Source of the DNA: a virus
IMG/VR virus record: IMGVR_UViG_3300037258_001195
Span: 28,988-92,987 of that record
DNA length: 64,000 nucleotides
Strand: one strand, 5' to 3'
Shown here piece by piece: positions 50,764 through 57,018 of the stretch. The notes beneath the pieces are model-generated. The model searched no databases, was not told where the DNA came from, and saw only the letters and a list, made by a program, of their open reading frames with translations. The stretch's first letter is position 1, and every line of letters starts with the position of its first letter. The position numbers and the translations under genes are program-made.

Positions 50764-52173
50764 GTGGTAAAAACAGTTGCGATAGATGATATAATAATTC
50801 GCCCCAACCGGCAAAGAAAGACCACCAAGGACGTCGACCCTCAATTCATCGCAAGCGTTAATCGGCGACTAATCAACCCCATTATCCTTATATCTCAACC
50901 CGACGGCATTGTCCTTTGTGCCGGCGAGCGACGACTAATTGCCCTTCGCGCCGGAAGCGTAACAGACCTAATTGAAAACGTCCATTTCCGCTTCTTCGCT
51001 GACCTCAATTCCGACGAAGCGGAAATTATCGAACTTGAAGAGAACGTGAAACGCGAGGATCTACATTGGCGCGATCATGTTGCCGCTGTAGGACGAATCC
51101 ATGCGATCTTCAAAGCTCGCGATGAAACCTGGACCGACCGAAAAACCGCCCAAGAGATTAATACCTCCCGGACAAGCATTAAAGAACATCTGATGATCTT
51201 TCGAAATCTCGACAACACGGCCCTCCGCGATGCAACTGGGACCAAACAAGCCTATTCTATCCTTCAAGGGATTGCCGAGCGCCGAACGGTCTCAATCGTG
51301 CAGGCGGTGACCAAGGTCGGTAGCGAAATTTTCGACATAAAGGCGCAAAGTAATGACCCGAGCGGGAATAATAGTCCAAGTCCTATTCCTAATTCTAATC
51401 CTAGTCATACTTCCCGGCTTAGCTCTCCTATCCCATCATCTCCTATCCCGCCTGATATCCCGCCTATGCCAGACAAAGAGCCCGAACCATCAATCCTAAA
51501 CACGGATTTTATAAAATGGATCTCAGGCTACTCGGGTGACAAATTCACCTTAATTCACTGTGACTTCCCGTATGACGTCAAATACGATTCCTATGCAAAG
51601 AGTATCTCGTCCGTGACCGACGATTATGACTTCTCTGGCTTCTGGCCCCTGATAGACGCCCTGTGTGGCAATCTCGACAAGATAATGTCCTATTCTGCCC
51701 ACATGATGTTCTGGTTTTCCATGAAATTCTACGAACAAACCAAAGGTCGATTGGAAAAAGCCGGCCTTTATGTCCACGATCATCCTTTTGTCTGGCAAAA
51801 AACCGACAACGCTGGAATTATCCCCGGGCGAGATGGTATTTTCCCGCGCCGCATTTACGAAACTGCATTTCTCTGTTCTCGTGGTCGCCGCCCGCTCGTT
51901 AAGTCCTTAGCAAACTGCTACGGCGCCCCGATGCAGTCGAATTCCATCCATCCCTCCACCAAGCCTGTCCCCGTGCTCAAGCATTTTTTTGCTATGCTCA
52001 TTGACGAAACTACTGATGTTCTAGACCCAACTGCAGGCAGCGGAAACAGCTTAATCGCCGCGGAGGACATGGGCGCGCGAAAGATCCTCGGACTAGAAAT
52101 CAATCCGACCTACGCAACCGCCGCACAAAGCGCGCTAGAGCGGTTTCGGGTTATGAGAAAGATCAGCAAATGA
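50764..52173 (+). CDS. ParB-DNA methyltransferase fusion
   Basis: A 469-residue protein. Residues 1-190 have a ParB-like N-terminal domain (AGERRLIALRAGS, then ELEENVKREDLHWRD) followed by an HTH-like segment. A Ser/Pro/Asn linker (about 200-240) leads to a DNA methyltransferase with DFPY at 267-270 (the D/N-P-P-Y type motif IV) and DPTAGSGN at 421-428 (motif I), an N6-adenine or N4-cytosine type with permuted motifs. The GTG at 50764 is preferred, with GGGGGACG upstream. No restriction enzyme is present, so it may protect phage DNA. Confidence 0.85.
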   Translation: MVKTVAIDDIIIRPNRQRKTTKDVDPQFIASVNRRLINPIILISQPDGIVLCAGERRLIALRAGSVTDLIENVHFRFFADLNSDEAEIIELEENVKREDLHWRDHVAAVGRIHAIFKARDETWTDRKTAQEINTSRTSIKEHLMIFRNLDNTALRDATGTKQAYSILQGIAERRTVSIVQAVTKVGSEIFDIKAQSNDPSGNNSPSPIPNSNPSHTSRLSSPIPSSPIPPDIPPMPDKEPEPSILNTDFIKWISGYSGDKFTLIHCDFPYDVKYDSYAKSISSVTDDYDFSGFWPLIDALCGNLDKIMSYSAHMMFWFSMKFYEQTKGRLEKAGLYVHDHPFVWQKTDNAGIIPGRDGIFPRRIYETAFLCSRGRRPLVKSLANCYGAPMQSNSIHPSTKPVPVLKHFFAMLIDETTDVLDPTAGSGNSLIAAEDMGARKILGLEINPTYATAAQSALERFRVMRKISK

Positions 52174-52379
52174 CCCTAGATCAACTAATCCAAGCTTGTA
52201 TCGCAAAGAAAGTCGGCAATAAAGAGTTCGCCCTATTCTTCATCCCTCCCGATTGGAGTGCTGACATAGGAAATCCGACTTCAGTGGTTATGCTGGGAGA
52301 AGCGCGGGGGGAAATATGTAGTGACGAGCACCCGACAGCAATCGCAGCAGTCGCACAACTATTGGAACGAATTCCATGA
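52170..52379 (+). CDS. small hypothetical protein
   Basis: A 69-residue protein, overlapping the methyltransferase gene by 4 nt. No domain recognised (SVVMLGEARGEICSDEHPTA). Its stop overlaps the ATG of the original start of the glycosylase-exonuclease gene, showing how that gene was once translated. Confidence 0.55.
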   Translation: MTLDQLIQACIAKKVGNKEFALFFIPPDWSADIGNPTSVVMLGEARGEICSDEHPTAIAAVAQLLERIP

Positions 52380-52417
52380 AGGTCGTTCTCGTCGCAGAGG
52401 CCTGGGGACGCCGATGA
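52376..52417 (+). pseudogene. stranded original start of the glycosylase-exonuclease gene
   Basis: ATG 52376 (ATGA overlap with the upstream stop) reads MKVVLVAEAWGRR and then meets a TGA created by the inserted HNH element. The live gene begins at 52842 with MRVVLVAEAYGRR. The first 38 bases of both copies encode the same peptide apart from K/R and W/Y, but all the other codons from V3 to A9 differ at the third base. This is the footprint of the homing-element insertion. Confidence 0.85.
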
Positions 52418-52851
52418 AAGAAATAATATTATCCAATGGGTTAATAGCTCTCGTCGATGACGATGACTATTCTCGACTTAGTAACTTTAGTTGGTTTGCG
52501 ATGCCACGACGTAATACAAATCATGCCGCACGTAAAGATAATAGTGGATGGGGAAAATACAGATACCGTAAGAATATATACATGCATACAGATGTTATGG
52601 GAATAACTCCAGATAATCTAGTATTGGATCATATAGATAGAAATGGGCTAAATAATCAAAAAGCCAATTTGCGATTCGTAACATACAGCCAAAATGCTGT
52701 AAATTCAGAGCGAAATGAAAGGGGACACATAGAGCGTCATGGTCGAAAATGGAGAGTTCGCGTGAAGCGTGAAGGAATTAGAATAGAGATTGGATCATTC
52801 TATACACATGAATCTGCAACCAAAGCTCTAGAGGACTTTCTATGCGAGTAG
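52414..52851 (+). CDS. HNH homing endonuclease with AP2-like domain
   Basis: A 145-residue free-standing endonuclease. NLVLDHIDRNGLNNQKANLR with following QNAVNSERN is the HNH_3 motif (D-H ... N ... N), and GRKWRVRVKREGIRIEIGSF is an AP2-like DNA-binding domain, a common pair in phage homing enzymes. It is AT-rich compared with its neighbours. ATG 52414 sits exactly at the break in the old gene start, and its last codons overlap the new start of the gene at 52842. It probably cuts alleles lacking the insertion. Confidence 0.88.
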   Translation: MKEIILSNGLIALVDDDDYSRLSNFSWFAMPRRNTNHAARKDNSGWGKYRYRKNIYMHTDVMGITPDNLVLDHIDRNGLNNQKANLRFVTYSQNAVNSERNERGHIERHGRKWRVRVKREGIRIEIGSFYTHESATKALEDFLCE

Positions 52852-54140
52852 TACTTGTTGCGGAAGCATATGGACGCCGCGAAGCCCAGTTTCAACACGC
52901 GCTGGTTGGTCCATCTGGCCGCGAACTAACCCTCGAAATGGCAATCGCCGGCTTCGCGCCCTATATGACCCTCCTATGCCGAAAGTGCAGCAAGACCTCT
53001 CAATTCATCGACGGTTTTTGCGAGCATTGCCGCGAGTACATATGGCCGAATGAATTTGACTTAATCGCCCATTGGAAACGTCTTAAGGAAATTTTAGGCT
53101 TCCACGTCACAAATGTATTTAATTTCCAGCCACCAAGCATCTGCTCGAATTGCGGCGCTCTCGGATCGGCAATTCGCTTCGGCACCGCCCCCAAGTGCAA
53201 AGACTGTGGCTCGAAAGAAATCCGCGAAAACGACCTGTCGAGCCTCTTCGGAACCGAAATCGAAACCCCCCTCGTTGGTTGGCGCGCCCCGAAGCGGACT
53301 GGAAGCCACCTCAAACGAGAGTATTTCTTCCACATTGAACGGCTTTGGAAAGAATTGAAGAGCCTCAACCCAAATCTCGTCGTTGCTCTCGGCAATTGTC
53401 CCTGCTGGGCAATTCTCGACCAACCTGGCATCACCGCGGCACGCGGAACAATCTCGACCTCAGAGCGCCTCGGCTTTAAGGTTCTTCCGACATTTCATCC
53501 CGCTGCCGTCCTCCGGAACACGGCCCTCCGCGCGACCTGTATCGCCGACTTCCAAAAAGCCGCCCGCGAGGCTGAATTTCCCGAAATTCGTCGCCAGGAG
53601 CGCTGGATTGAAATAATCGACCCTACTGAAGAAGGAATTCGTCGTGGATACGAATGGTTTAAAAAGCCTGCCCGAGCCTACGCAAACGATATTGAGACTC
53701 ATAAGCGACAAATTACCATTGTTGGATTCGCACGCTCCGTCGACGATGCGCTTGTCATTCCCCTTAGAGTCGAACCTCCAAGGGCAAAACTTAAAAATTC
53801 TGATGGAAAGCTTGTCGCCAACCCAAATTATGAGGCTGAACTCCTTTCGTTCGAGCCGAACTACTGGCCGACGCCAGAATTAGAAGCCAAAGCCTGGAAG
53901 CTAATTCAACACGGCTTGCAGACTCCTCAGCCGAAGATATTCCAGAACGGACTTTACGACATGAGCTATGAGCTTCTTCTCGGCCTTCAGCCCGTCAATG
54001 CCATCCACGACACGATGCTTTGGCACCATTCTCTGTATCCTGAATTGCCAAAGTCACTTGGCTTCCTCGGGTCCATCTATTGCGCAGAAATTGCATGGAA
54101 GAGTATGAGACGTGGTGAGACATTAAAAAGGGATGAATAA
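52842..54140 (+). CDS. uracil-DNA glycosylase-like domain fused to 3'-5' exonuclease half
   Basis: A 432-residue protein. Residues 1-235 resemble a uracil-DNA glycosylase with VAEAYGRREA near the start and FHPAAVLRN (219-226) near the end, interrupted by two Cys4 zinc ribbons (C46, C49, C60, C63 and C101, C104, C119, C122). Residues 275-432 are the first part of a DnaQ-like exonuclease: ExoI D283 and E285 in NDIETHK, and ExoII N369 and D373 in QNGLYDMSYE. ExoIII lies in the polymerase gene at 55510. Both ends are rebuilt by homing elements. Confidence 0.8.
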   Translation: MRVVLVAEAYGRREAQFQHALVGPSGRELTLEMAIAGFAPYMTLLCRKCSKTSQFIDGFCEHCREYIWPNEFDLIAHWKRLKEILGFHVTNVFNFQPPSICSNCGALGSAIRFGTAPKCKDCGSKEIRENDLSSLFGTEIETPLVGWRAPKRTGSHLKREYFFHIERLWKELKSLNPNLVVALGNCPCWAILDQPGITAARGTISTSERLGFKVLPTFHPAAVLRNTALRATCIADFQKAAREAEFPEIRRQERWIEIIDPTEEGIRRGYEWFKKPARAYANDIETHKRQITIVGFARSVDDALVIPLRVEPPRAKLKNSDGKLVANPNYEAELLSFEPNYWPTPELEAKAWKLIQHGLQTPQPKIFQNGLYDMSYELLLGLQPVNAIHDTMLWHHSLYPELPKSLGFLGSIYCAEIAWKSMRRGETLKRDE

Positions 54141-54723
54141 AATGCCGAGATATGGATGGCGTAAAAGCTACGCTAAAATTTGCTCTATTGATGGATGTAA
54201 CGATGCCGTAAAATATAAAGGCATGTGCGGAATGCACTATAAACGACAATGGCGTCATGGAGATGTTAATATTTCACTAATTCCACACGAATTTACTGAC
54301 CGACATGTATGTGACGTTGATAGTTGTCAAGAATTACAATATGCTAGTAATTCTCCATATTGTAAGAAGCATTATTTACGTCTGTATAGGTTTGGTAGAT
54401 TGCATAATATAAAAAACGGATATGGCGAAAGTAAAGTTAGACATAAAGCAGCTGGTGGATATTGGGAGATAAACGATGAAGAAGGAAGAAAGATATATGA
54501 GCACGTTTGGTTAGCTGAAAAAGCACTGGGAAAGAAGCTACCATCAGGTGCTATAGTTCATCATATGAATAAAGATCGAGGTGACAATGATACACCATTC
54601 AATCTAATAGTTTGTCCTAATCAAGCATATCATCTACTATTACATAAACGAATGCGAGATTTAGGATATATCGGAGATCTCTTGGAAACAAATGAGACGT
54701 GGCGAGACCCTAAAGCGGGATGA
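54133..54723 (+). CDS. HNH homing endonuclease, second element
   Basis: A 196-residue protein with two small Cys/His finger motifs in its N-terminal half (CSIDGCND ... CGMHYKRQ and CDVDSCQE ... CKKHYLRLYRFGR), then HNH_3: YEHVWLAEKALGKKLPSGAI, VHHMNKDRGDNDTPFNL and HLLLHKRMR. Its start codons (ATGAATAAAATG) copy those of the downstream gene. It is very AT-rich. It sits right at the end of the glycosylase-exonuclease gene and probably homes into that site. Confidence 0.88.
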   Translation: MNKMPRYGWRKSYAKICSIDGCNDAVKYKGMCGMHYKRQWRHGDVNISLIPHEFTDRHVCDVDSCQELQYASNSPYCKKHYLRLYRFGRLHNIKNGYGESKVRHKAAGGYWEINDEEGRKIYEHVWLAEKALGKKLPSGAIVHHMNKDRGDNDTPFNLIVCPNQAYHLLLHKRMRDLGYIGDLLETNETWRDPKAG

Positions 54724-54727
54724 ATAA
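54674..54727 (+). pseudogene. original 3' end of the exonuclease gene, displaced by the homing element
   Basis: Read in the exonuclease frame this stretch gives E-I-S-W-K-Q-M-R-R-G-E-T-L-K-R-D-E-stop. The live gene end at 54087-54140 gives E-I-A-W-K-S-M-R-R-G-E-T-L-K-R-D-E-stop, with different synonymous codons (GGC/GGT, ACC/ACA, CTA/TTA, AAG/AAA, CGG/AGG). The displaced copy uses the GC-richer codons of the phage, so it is likely the ancestral one. Confidence 0.82.
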
Positions 54728-54956
54728 AATGAAAAATTGGCTAAAATTTGAATATGGTACGTATATAAATGGAATAGAATGGAAGACGGAAGGAATGGTA
54801 TACATAGACCCGGCAGCTATATCTTCAGTTATGGAAATATCACGACACTTTCCAAATGCGACAGGCTGTTGTATATATTTAGGATATTCAGGCAAACAAT
54901 ACGCTGTTCGCGAATCCATCAGCGCTGTTATGGCTGAAATTCAGTCCGCACTTTAG
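54720..54956 (+). CDS. small hypothetical protein, AT-rich
   Basis: A 78-residue protein overlapping the HNH stop by 4 nt; an internal ATG at 54729 is an alternative. It ends in helical sequence (AVRESISAVMAEIQSAL). It begins MNKMKNWLKF, sharing its first codons with the upstream HNH gene. No domain recognised. Confidence 0.6.
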   Translation: MNKMKNWLKFEYGTYINGIEWKTEGMVYIDPAAISSVMEISRHFPNATGCCIYLGYSGKQYAVRESISAVMAEIQSAL

Positions 54957-54976
54957 TTGAGAAAGGACGACCCGAC

Positions 54977-55510
54977 ATGACAATCCTCTCTGCCCAGTCA
55001 ATTCGACTCTTAAGTCGTCTATCAAAGACTGATACATCATATATGTACCTACACACGAGAGGGGGAAAAGTCACATTTAGACCTGGTAAACCTCTCATTA
55101 CTCCCTTTGTCGAGCGCGGCGTGAAGAACGGACGATCTTTCGGCCTTTCTGCCTGCTCCTATGATTGTCGAATTGCTGATGGTCTCGTCATTCCCGTCGG
55201 CCAATCGCGCCTCGCAAGCACAATGGAGCGATTCTGTCTACCCAACAACATCTGCGGCTCAGTGTTGGACAAATCAACCTGGGCCAGAAAGTTCCTCTCG
55301 GCCTTTAATACCCATTTGGACCCCGGCTGGGAAGGCTTCCTAACGGTGGAGTTAACTAACCTTGGTTCCGAAGCCGCATTTTTCGAGCCAGGCGATTCAT
55401 TGGTCCAAATAAAGTTCGAGTGGCTCGATGAACCAACGAACCTTCCATATTCAGGAAAATATCAAGCCCAGGAAGCTGGTCCACAAGGGCCGCGAAGTGA
55501 GCAGACCTGA
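54977..55510 (+). CDS. dCTP deaminase / dUTPase family protein
   Basis: A 177-residue protein with the fold and motifs of dCTP deaminases and related dUTPases: GLSACSYDCRI, CGSVLDKSTWARK, LDPGWEGFLTVELTN and the C-terminal YSGKYQAQEAGP. With a uracil-DNA glycosylase-like domain next door, it suggests control of uracil in the phage DNA or dUMP supply. The stop overlaps the polymerase start as TGATG. Confidence 0.85.
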   Translation: MTILSAQSIRLLSRLSKTDTSYMYLHTRGGKVTFRPGKPLITPFVERGVKNGRSFGLSACSYDCRIADGLVIPVGQSRLASTMERFCLPNNICGSVLDKSTWARKFLSAFNTHLDPGWEGFLTVELTNLGSEAAFFEPGDSLVQIKFEWLDEPTNLPYSGKYQAQEAGPQGPRSEQT

Positions 55511-57018
55511 TGCCTCTAATTGCCGCCCATGAAACGAACATTTCCGCCGGAACCCAGACCATTTACAACGGTTTCGACTGTGCCCTAACGTTTCAGATCG
55601 ATGAGGTCCGCCAGAACCTTCACGCCAACGACACCCTAATCTATGATTTCGAACGGGCTATGCAGGGTTCCGCACTAGAAATGTCCCTGCGCGGTTTTCG
55701 TGTCGACATCGACGAACGGGAGCGGGCGATCATCTCGACACGTTCCCGCCGCAACGACTACAGCTATGTGTTGCAGAAGATTCTTGAGGCAATTCCCGGT
55801 AATTGGACTGATAAGCTCGCGGGCTCCCCAACTCAACTTCAAGCCCTGTTCTACGACACCATGAACCTTCCACAATTCCCCAAATTCGTCAACGGCGAGC
55901 GCAAGCTCCCAATGAACCGAGAAACGTTGGAGAAAATCCAGCTAACCGACCCCTGGGCCGACGTCCTAATCAACACAATCCTCTGGAGCCGAGACCTCTC
56001 AAAGACGCTCCAGGTCCTTGAAACAGAAATTCGCGCCGACGAAAGCCGGTTTCCCGGCGACTTAAATTGGCGCTGGCACTGTTCCTACAACATCGGGGGA
56101 ACAACAACAGGGAGGTGGAGTTCCAGCAAATCCCCCTTCGGAGACGGAAATAACTTCCAAAATGTCAGTGAGGAACTTCGCCGTGTTTTCATTCCTGACC
56201 CAGGCTTTAAACTCTATGGGATTGACAAAGCGCAAAGCGAAGCCCGAGATGTCGGGTGGTTTTGCGGTCTTGTTTTCGGAGATTGGAGTTACTTGGACGC
56301 CTGTGAGTCTGGCGACCTCCACACAAACGTCACCAAACTCCTTTATCCTGAGTGGTCCTGGACCGGGGACGCTAAACGGGATCGTCAAATTGCCGAACGG
56401 CGATTCTATCGACTATTCACTTACCGTGACGCGTCGAAGCGCCTCGGACATGCCACAAATTACCTGGTTACACCGGCTGAAGCCTCCCGACAAATCAGAA
56501 TTCCATTAAATCTCGTTGAGGAATTCCAGCGCCGATATTTCGCTGCCTTCCCCTGCATTCGGATGATGCATGACTGGGTATCGAGCGAACTCCAAAGGAA
56601 GCGATATCTCGTCAATTCCTTTGGCCGCCGGCGAGATTTTTTCGACCATCCCAAGAGTCGAGAAACTTTAAAGGGCGCAATCGCCTATTTGTTTCAGTCC
56701 GCTACCGGCGACTGCCTCAACCTGGGCCTTTATCGACTTTGGACTCGCATGAAGGGTCGAATTGAAATCCTCTCCCAGCTCCACGACGCGGTCTATTTTC
56801 AGGCCCCGATTTCAAAGAGCGACGCCGAAGAACAGGAACTTCTCCGCGAGTGTATTGATTGCATCGAGGTCGAACAAACTACAACCCGAAACGGGGGGCG
56901 GAAGATGAAAATCCCTGGAGACATCGTTGGGGGTTTTAATTGGGCTCATAGGTTTAGATTTGGCGGTAAAGATGACTGGAATCCAAAAGGTCTTGATGGA
57001 ATAAGGATCGCGGCATGA
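55510..57018 (+). CDS. family A DNA polymerase (polymerase part of a split gene)
   Basis: A 502-residue protein. Residues 18-30 carry TIYNGFDCALTFQ, the ExoIII Y-x3-D motif of the proofreading domain, whose ExoI and ExoII lie in the 52842 gene. Polymerase motif A is around D239 (LYGIDKAQSEARD), motif B R306-K310-...-Y318 (YRDASKRLGHATNY), and motif C H425-D426 (LSQLHDAVYF). FGRRRDFFD is also family-typical. Replicates the phage DNA, presumably with the protein at 52842 in trans. Confidence 0.9.
   Translation: MPLIAAHETNISAGTQTIYNGFDCALTFQIDEVRQNLHANDTLIYDFERAMQGSALEMSLRGFRVDIDERERAIISTRSRRNDYSYVLQKILEAIPGNWTDKLAGSPTQLQALFYDTMNLPQFPKFVNGERKLPMNRETLEKIQLTDPWADVLINTILWSRDLSKTLQVLETEIRADESRFPGDLNWRWHCSYNIGGTTTGRWSSSKSPFGDGNNFQNVSEELRRVFIPDPGFKLYGIDKAQSEARDVGWFCGLVFGDWSYLDACESGDLHTNVTKLLYPEWSWTGDAKRDRQIAERRFYRLFTYRDASKRLGHATNYLVTPAEASRQIRIPLNLVEEFQRRYFAAFPCIRMMHDWVSSELQRKRYLVNSFGRRRDFFDHPKSRETLKGAIAYLFQSATGDCLNLGLYRLWTRMKGRIEILSQLHDAVYFQAPISKSDAEEQELLRECIDCIEVEQTTTRNGGRKMKIPGDIVGGFNWAHRFRFGGKDDWNPKGLDGIRIAA

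Follow-up and report, generated by a model that had tools for sequence, protein, structure and literature searches.

A phage exonuclease gene bracketed by two HNH endonuclease genes that probably supplied its replacement ends

An exonuclease gene in an uncultivated virus carries each of its two ends twice, and an HNH endonuclease gene separates the two copies on either side. We consider it probable, at roughly 80%, that the first of these endonuclease genes (HNH1) inserted into the exonuclease/UDG gene as a mobile unit together with what are now codons 1-10 of the live gene, with the inserted end spared by silent divergence that it brought from its donor lineage. The DNA analyzed here, hereafter the window, is a stretch of 64,000 nucleotides covering positions 28,988-92,987 of a 92,987-base viral contig (a record of about 93 kb).

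The target gene (52842..54140, + strand) encodes a 432-residue protein with an N-terminal UDG-like domain (PF03167, E 1.4e-7) and a polymerase-type 3'-5' exonuclease part (phrog_17, DNA polymerase), and it has uninterrupted homologues in other viral sequences (L001-L007). It is positioned between a ParB/methyltransferase gene on one side and DNA polymerase A on the other, the latter being the next replication gene and comprising the polymerase part (55510..57018, +; PF00476, E 2.6e-21). Over 52842-57018, DNA polymerase I is split into a UDG-like/exonuclease fusion gene and a separate polymerase gene, an organization shared by the window and those relatives that were seen.

Two copies of the 5' end around HNH1

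The elements at the 5' side follow each other head to tail: an orphan gene start, MKVVLVAEAWGRR (52376-52417, +), the HNH1 gene (52414-52851, +), and the opening of the live gene, MRVVLVAEAYGRR (from 52842). The orphan, which sequence comparison suggests to be the native N-terminus of the target, is a complete open reading frame of 13 codons plus TGA. Its ATG overlaps the TGA stop of a small upstream gene (orf69, 52170..52379, +; no family match in a domain/family search) in the motif ATGA, and its own TGA overlaps the start of HNH1 in the same manner. HNH1 encodes an HNH_3 homing-type endonuclease of 145 residues with a GC content of 38% (PF13392, E 3.4e-7; phrog_99, E 7.9e-18), and its stop falls within the start of the live gene (ATGCGAGTAG). 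The initial annotation of this DNA, which was made from the sequence alone, had described an older gene start that overlaps the upstream stop and precedes the HNH gene, with the live gene starting directly after it, and the anatomy is indeed as described.

The left copy (52376-52413) and the right copy (52842-52879) are identical at 26/38 nucleotides and 11/13 amino acids. All seven codons from V3 to A9 differ, in each case at the third base, and the last eight nucleotides (GGACGCCG) are the same in both copies, just as the initial annotation had stated. This shared octamer is the inner end of the left copy (52406..52413, +), recurs at 52872-52879, and marks the insertion point or crossover. 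The best other match to the 13-mer in the six frames of the window reaches 6/13, and the flank-to-flank translated match across HNH1 scores 29.5 bits, compared to at most 16.6 in 25 shuffles (z 10.6). Being a complete frame with coupled start and stop, the left copy could in principle encode a leader peptide or be a small gene with no relation to the target, but this is scarcely credible for a frame that resembles the conserved start of the target so closely, stops at the exact point from which the native body continues, and belongs to a layout that recurs elsewhere.

The replacement 5' end of ten codons (MRVVLVAEAY, 52842..52871, +) is AT-leaning, and the previously noted resemblance to the HNH gene itself is confirmed: the GC content at third codon positions (GC3) is 1/9 for live codons 2-10, a value that only 2.6% of the windows in the same gene match or undercut, and amounts to 0.28 in HNH1 (0.24-0.28 across the HNH genes) versus 0.57 in the body of the target gene. 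The change of all seven codons has a probability of about 0.04 if codons are drawn randomly from the gene's own synonymous usage, and the divergence of the two copies over V3-A9 is therefore close to what is expected under synonymous saturation. At the protein level, the live start differs from the orphan by two changes, K2R and W10Y. Since tyrosine occurs naturally at position 10 in some homologues (L019 and L039), the latter is not in itself proof of a change.

Comparison with uninterrupted homologues in IMG/VR, which have 50-56% protein identity and the same gene order, supports the left copy as native and suggests that the right copy arrived with the HNH gene. Over a conserved core of 27 nucleotides, 11 of the 12 uninterrupted relatives are nearer to the orphan start than to the live one (mean 18.8 versus 15.6 of 27), the sole exception being the AT-rich relative L035, and W10 of the orphan agrees with most of the 12. 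At the 3' end discussed below, the orphan is likewise nearer than the live end to four of five uninterrupted relatives. For the window itself this evidence is only suggestive, because no close relative of the phage was found: IMG/VR protein, alignment, and degenerate-pattern scans as well as tblastn and megablast searches of INPHARED yielded no uninterrupted relative beyond 50-56% protein identity. With the nearest such alleles at this distance, the window's own empty site is an inferred one. Three IMG/VR pattern matches (L050, L051, and L055) were rejected as chance hits in a different reading frame.

A mirror-image duplication at the 3' end

The HNH1 arrangement has a symmetric counterpart, as HNH2 flanks the other end of the target in the same way. 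At this end the live gene closes with EIAWKSMRRGETLKRDE and a stop (54087..54140, +), followed by HNH2 (54133..54723, +), which encodes a 196-residue protein with a zinc-finger-like part and an HNH_3 endonuclease domain (PF13392, E 2.5e-8), and then by an orphan copy of the native C-terminus, EISWKQMRRGETLKRDE and a stop (54674..54727, +; z 19.1 versus shuffles). The duplicated stretches, a direct repeat, span 54087-54144 and 54674-54731, and the last codons of HNH2 run through the orphan 3' end in another reading frame. On each side of the target, the orphan copy thus lies outside and the live copy inside, and both insertion points fall where the target protein is well conserved (E8, A9, G11, R12, and E14 at one end; I417, W419, K420, and M422 at the other).

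GC3 also falls in the replacement 3' end, to 5/17 over the last 17 codons of the target. As 8% of the windows in the gene body are equally low, this contrast is weak by itself, and the 3' case rests on the repeat as well. On both sides, the switch in GC3 coincides with the insertion point, and most likely, therefore, the ends came with the HNH genes and the body of the gene is native. Replacement of the whole gene by a segment bracketed by two HNH genes was considered and rejected, because GC3 in the body is native and the AT-richness is confined to the ends.

HNH1 and HNH2 are separate open reading frames, each with its own start and stop. Their HNH_3 domains score 30.2 and 33.8 bits, respectively, both above the curated cut-off of 24.8, and they are the sole HNH_3 genes found in the entire 93-kb record. 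A search for an intron or structured RNA at the locus gave no Rfam match at E 0.1, and there is thus no known intron there. We accordingly rejected a group I intron or intein, as the live gene is moreover unbroken and has its own ends. Immediately downstream of HNH2, orf78 (54720-54956) shares the AT-richness of the HNH genes (38% GC) and matches no known family; it may have arrived together with HNH2.

Based on this anatomy, we propose the following course of events, in which cleavage, immunity, and the direction of transfer are inferred from sequence. The HNH enzyme would cleave an uninterrupted copy within its conserved start, close to GGACGCCG (codons 11-13), and repair off an element-bearing phage would bring in the HNH gene along with the donor's own target start. 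The native start would thereby be severed and stay upstream as the 13-codon orphan, and the new start would join the native body at the shared octamer, restoring the protein with its two substitutions and with every silent codon from V3 to A9 altered. HNH2 would represent the mirror-image event at the 3' end. The altered end would keep the gene alive, should escape the enzyme by virtue of its different spelling, and would differ too much from the orphan for the two to recombine easily and so delete the HNH gene. The silent differences most likely built up in a diverged, AT-richer donor lineage in which selection kept the protein, and they would be retained because the end becomes uncuttable. 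As the target gene is restored and the DNA is changed at the insertion point, the locus is cleave-and-rescue-like by anatomy.

Parallel loci and a filled/empty pair of alleles

The arrangement recurs in unrelated phages. The clearest view of such an insertion comes from three cultured phages, Kabocha (OP867022, L085), Hanem (OP867024, L088), and ChisanaKitsune (MZ820089, L089), all of which grow on Gordonia rubripertincta NRRL B-16540. The terminase genes of Kabocha and Hanem are identical over 1427 nucleotides, after which Kabocha has 18 changes in its last 55 nucleotides, all of them synonymous, so that 15/18 codons but 0/18 amino acids are changed. The altered end is followed by an HNH gene and then by Hanem's terminase end, an orphan with a 100% match to Hanem and with perfect identity from there on for 1291 nucleotides. 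The Kabocha insert, comprising the 55-nucleotide terminase end and the HNH gene, is therefore 812 bp long and has clean ends, and its flanks are 100% identical to the empty Hanem allele. Comparison of the two alleles shows that the insertion consists of an HNH gene and a diverged end that takes the place of the target's own. The Kabocha HNH gene is annotated from position 1594, but its frame opens earlier, with an ATGA at the terminase stop, which adds a zinc-finger-like stretch (L085:1481-1594); given this overlap and the extra stretch, the true start is probably there.

Kabocha has four HNH_3 genes, Hanem none, and three of the four have replaced the end of a neighboring gene. At the second locus (Kabocha #2, shared with Schomber), a 5'-side case, a RecA-like gene has the HNH gene at its 3' end and the start of the next gene has been displaced and replaced. 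At the third (Kabocha #3), a donor-like tract some 180 bp long has replaced the end of the target, and beyond the HNH gene only the last native codons remain.

The terminase of ChisanaKitsune has no HNH gene at its 3' end (locus 1620-1675), where a Kabocha-like altered part is followed by the native end, the two being joined at GAAGC. This chimeric end is best read as the loss of an element by recombination between the two copies, which would have left an altered site behind; the alternative is that it represents a source allele. According to the initial annotation, the element's codons in a relative that lacks an HNH gene would indicate simple divergence, and ChisanaKitsune fits that description in part only.

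Two further cases are those of L019 and L006. In L019, a 3'-side case, a homologous target gene is followed at the same gene junction by an HNH gene whose product is 51% identical to HNH2, with an orphan end directly after it. The last 60 nucleotides of the corresponding gene in L045, a relative of L019 without an HNH gene at this site, match the orphan of L019 at 59/60 positions and its live end at 43/60. In L006 (9244-11153), a 5'-side case, a helicase-like gene is interrupted by the HNH gene after codon 46-47, and its orphan N-terminus lies upstream of the HNH gene and a new start downstream. The GC3 of the live L006 gene is about 0.35 over codons 1-80 and about 0.7 beyond, and the donor-like sequence extends some 35 codons past the insertion point. 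Uninterrupted alleles carrying the orphan's codons, which had been proposed as a check on the window, are thus present in two of the parallel cases (L045 and Hanem), whereas the window phage has its more distant homologues.

We surveyed a convenience sample of about 60 distinct HNH loci by translated comparison of flank against flank, a procedure blind to orphans of less than about 10 codons. Six clear duplicated ends emerged, namely both sides of the window target, L019, L006, the Kabocha terminase, and Kabocha/Schomber #2, and most of the HNH genes surveyed have none. Five relatives of HNH2 at the same exonuclease/polymerase junction (L058, L061, L065, L066, and L067) lack an orphan end, which is consequently not obligatory, and flank comparison found no duplication around relatives of HNH2 in bacterial genomes (L069-L071). 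Matches at L124, at L139, and, in a first pass, at L147 were self-overlap artefacts of the choice of reading frame. In the Methanosarcina virus MetMV (L074:1319-2140), an HNH gene lies between two small Cys-rich genes that resemble each other (52/105 nucleotides). There is no truncated partner, and the two are probably paralogues rather than a duplicated end.

Third-position differences are the commonest in every live/orphan pair, and both copies therefore diverged as working gene ends before being joined. Duplication within one genome followed by drift of both copies, with no transfer, would explain why they are adjacent and similar, but we regard it as very improbable, because drift of a dead copy would strike all codon positions and the orphan first, whereas the changes are mostly silent and the orphans are undecayed, with near or full identity to working alleles in L019 and Kabocha.

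Recoded or diverged ends, and their relation to known systems

The initial annotation read the right copy of the window as a recoded rescue copy brought by the element. The part of this reading that concerns origin is upheld, with the left copy native and the right one accompanying the HNH gene (11/12 relatives, and 59/60 and 100% in the L045 and Hanem comparisons), but in place of recoding the ordinary, naturally diverged end of an AT-richer donor would suffice. The annotation's own alternative, co-conversion from a relative, is favored by the donor tracts that reach past the insertion in L006 and Kabocha #3 and by amino acid changes in most cases. Indeed, such changes are present in L006, Kabocha #2, L019, and the start of the window gene, and apart from the Kabocha terminase the live and orphan ends are identical at 10/12, 15/17, 18/20, 33/46, and 11/18 residues, giving a range of 61% to 100% across all cases. 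In view of these changes and tracts, natural divergence of the donor end, kept for resistance, is likelier than selection for recoding as such. Only the Kabocha terminase, with 18 silent changes between 100% identical flanks, points more towards genuine recoding.

This case is also the main argument for a purpose-built cleave-and-rescue element, in which the target end would be permanent cargo selected for maximal silent change against both the enzyme and recombination with the orphan. Its two boundaries are exact, without co-conversion of the flanks, the composition of the window gene switches at both insertion points, and ChisanaKitsune shows what is likely the penalty, a chimeric end that lacks the HNH gene, as if its copies had recombined. 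However, random choice among synonymous codons could also give the 15/18 changed codons in Kabocha (mean 12.7, P 0.16), and neither the amino acid changes elsewhere nor the donor sequence beyond the insertion points in L006 and Kabocha #3 fit such a design, which we therefore deem rather unlikely. At somewhat less than even odds, the HNH genes could instead be ordinary free-standing ones beside their targets, with the duplicated ends being scars of one-sided, partly illegitimate repair in which the target end was merely co-converted. The same donor tracts and the orphan-less relatives of HNH2 speak for this, as does the documented one-sided, illegitimate repair of double-strand breaks at microhomology in T4 homing (PMC2988022), but the Kabocha flanks equal the empty allele right up to the insertion, which resembles an intron-like insertion rather than sloppy repair, and six clear cases among some 60 loci, on 5' and 3' sides, make a recurrent architecture. 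The broader proposal of a natural class of splicing-free phage homing elements, carrying a re-spelled 5' or 3' replacement end whose synonymous sites are under selection against self-cutting and deletion, is a tentative one that we hold with the balance somewhat against it.

The insertion with a replacement end shows how a homing endonuclease gene can do without an intron or intein and still inhabit a conserved coding sequence, by supplying a substitute gene end. Because Kabocha, Hanem, and ChisanaKitsune are in culture, they give direct experimental access to cutting, immunity, and loss. For annotators there is also a warning, as short orphan gene ends near HNH genes and terminal patches of odd codons are homing footprints.

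The closest known counterparts are mobile open reading frames of fungal mitochondria, which replace the C-termini of genes such as atp6 in Allomyces macrogynus and atp6, atp9, cox2, and nad3 in Glomus (PMC3630166). In both settings, the endonuclease lies within coding sequence, a diverged C-terminus has been inserted as the end of the live gene, and the displaced native C-terminus beyond the endonuclease matches uninterrupted relatives, with the amino acids largely kept. The inserted terminus is likewise in frame with the native gene here, and the match of the displaced terminus is close in L019/L045 and Kabocha/Hanem, the window having distant relatives only. The fungal elements are, however, C-terminal and mitochondrial and encode LAGLIDADG or GIY-YIG enzymes, whereas those described here are found in phages and encode HNH_3 enzymes, and in the window two of them bracket one gene. 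They also occur on the 5' side (HNH1, L006, and Kabocha #2), a position that requires a fresh start codon and N-terminus. The arrangement departs from known systems in its occurrence in phages, in its HNH_3 enzymes, in having a version on the 5' side, and in the flanking of a single gene by two elements; in the open-access literature, we found no description of the arrangement in phages or of any 5' case.

Among phage elements, the window resembles the free-standing homing endonucleases of T4 and other phages in having intron-free HNH genes beside a conserved replication gene (PMC2988022, PMC12724721); HNH1 and HNH2, as separate frames at a locus with no Rfam match, lie outside any intron or intein. 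As in intronless homing and marker exclusion of the T4 type, recipient sequence would be replaced by that of the donor, which is assumed to be resistant, and the stop-start overlaps are like those of mobE. The known free-standing enzymes, however, cut hundreds to thousands of bp away from the gene that encodes them, and descriptions of them mention no displaced end of a target (PMC2988022, PMC12724721), whereas the window HNH genes are inserted inside the target gene at both ends and leave an orphan piece. The mobE gene in nrdA of phage Aeh1 (PMC2988022) also lies within a coding region, but there both halves are kept as separate proteins, while the window gene stays whole with its end supplied anew. 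HEG islands (PMC10448857) similarly have homing endonuclease genes bracketing an essential gene, but as a module of over 10 kb rather than a single gene with a body of native composition and foreign ends only.

Finally, the locus offers a natural counterpart, at both gene ends, to engineered cleave-and-rescue and home-and-rescue drives (for example PMC7968924, PMC7951863). The shared principle is a nuclease combined with a re-spelled functional version of its own target. The window element correspondingly links a nuclease to a functional, altered copy of a target, the replaced end presumably being what the nuclease itself recognizes, but compared to the synthetic drives it is natural, partial in covering one gene end, and known from its sequence.
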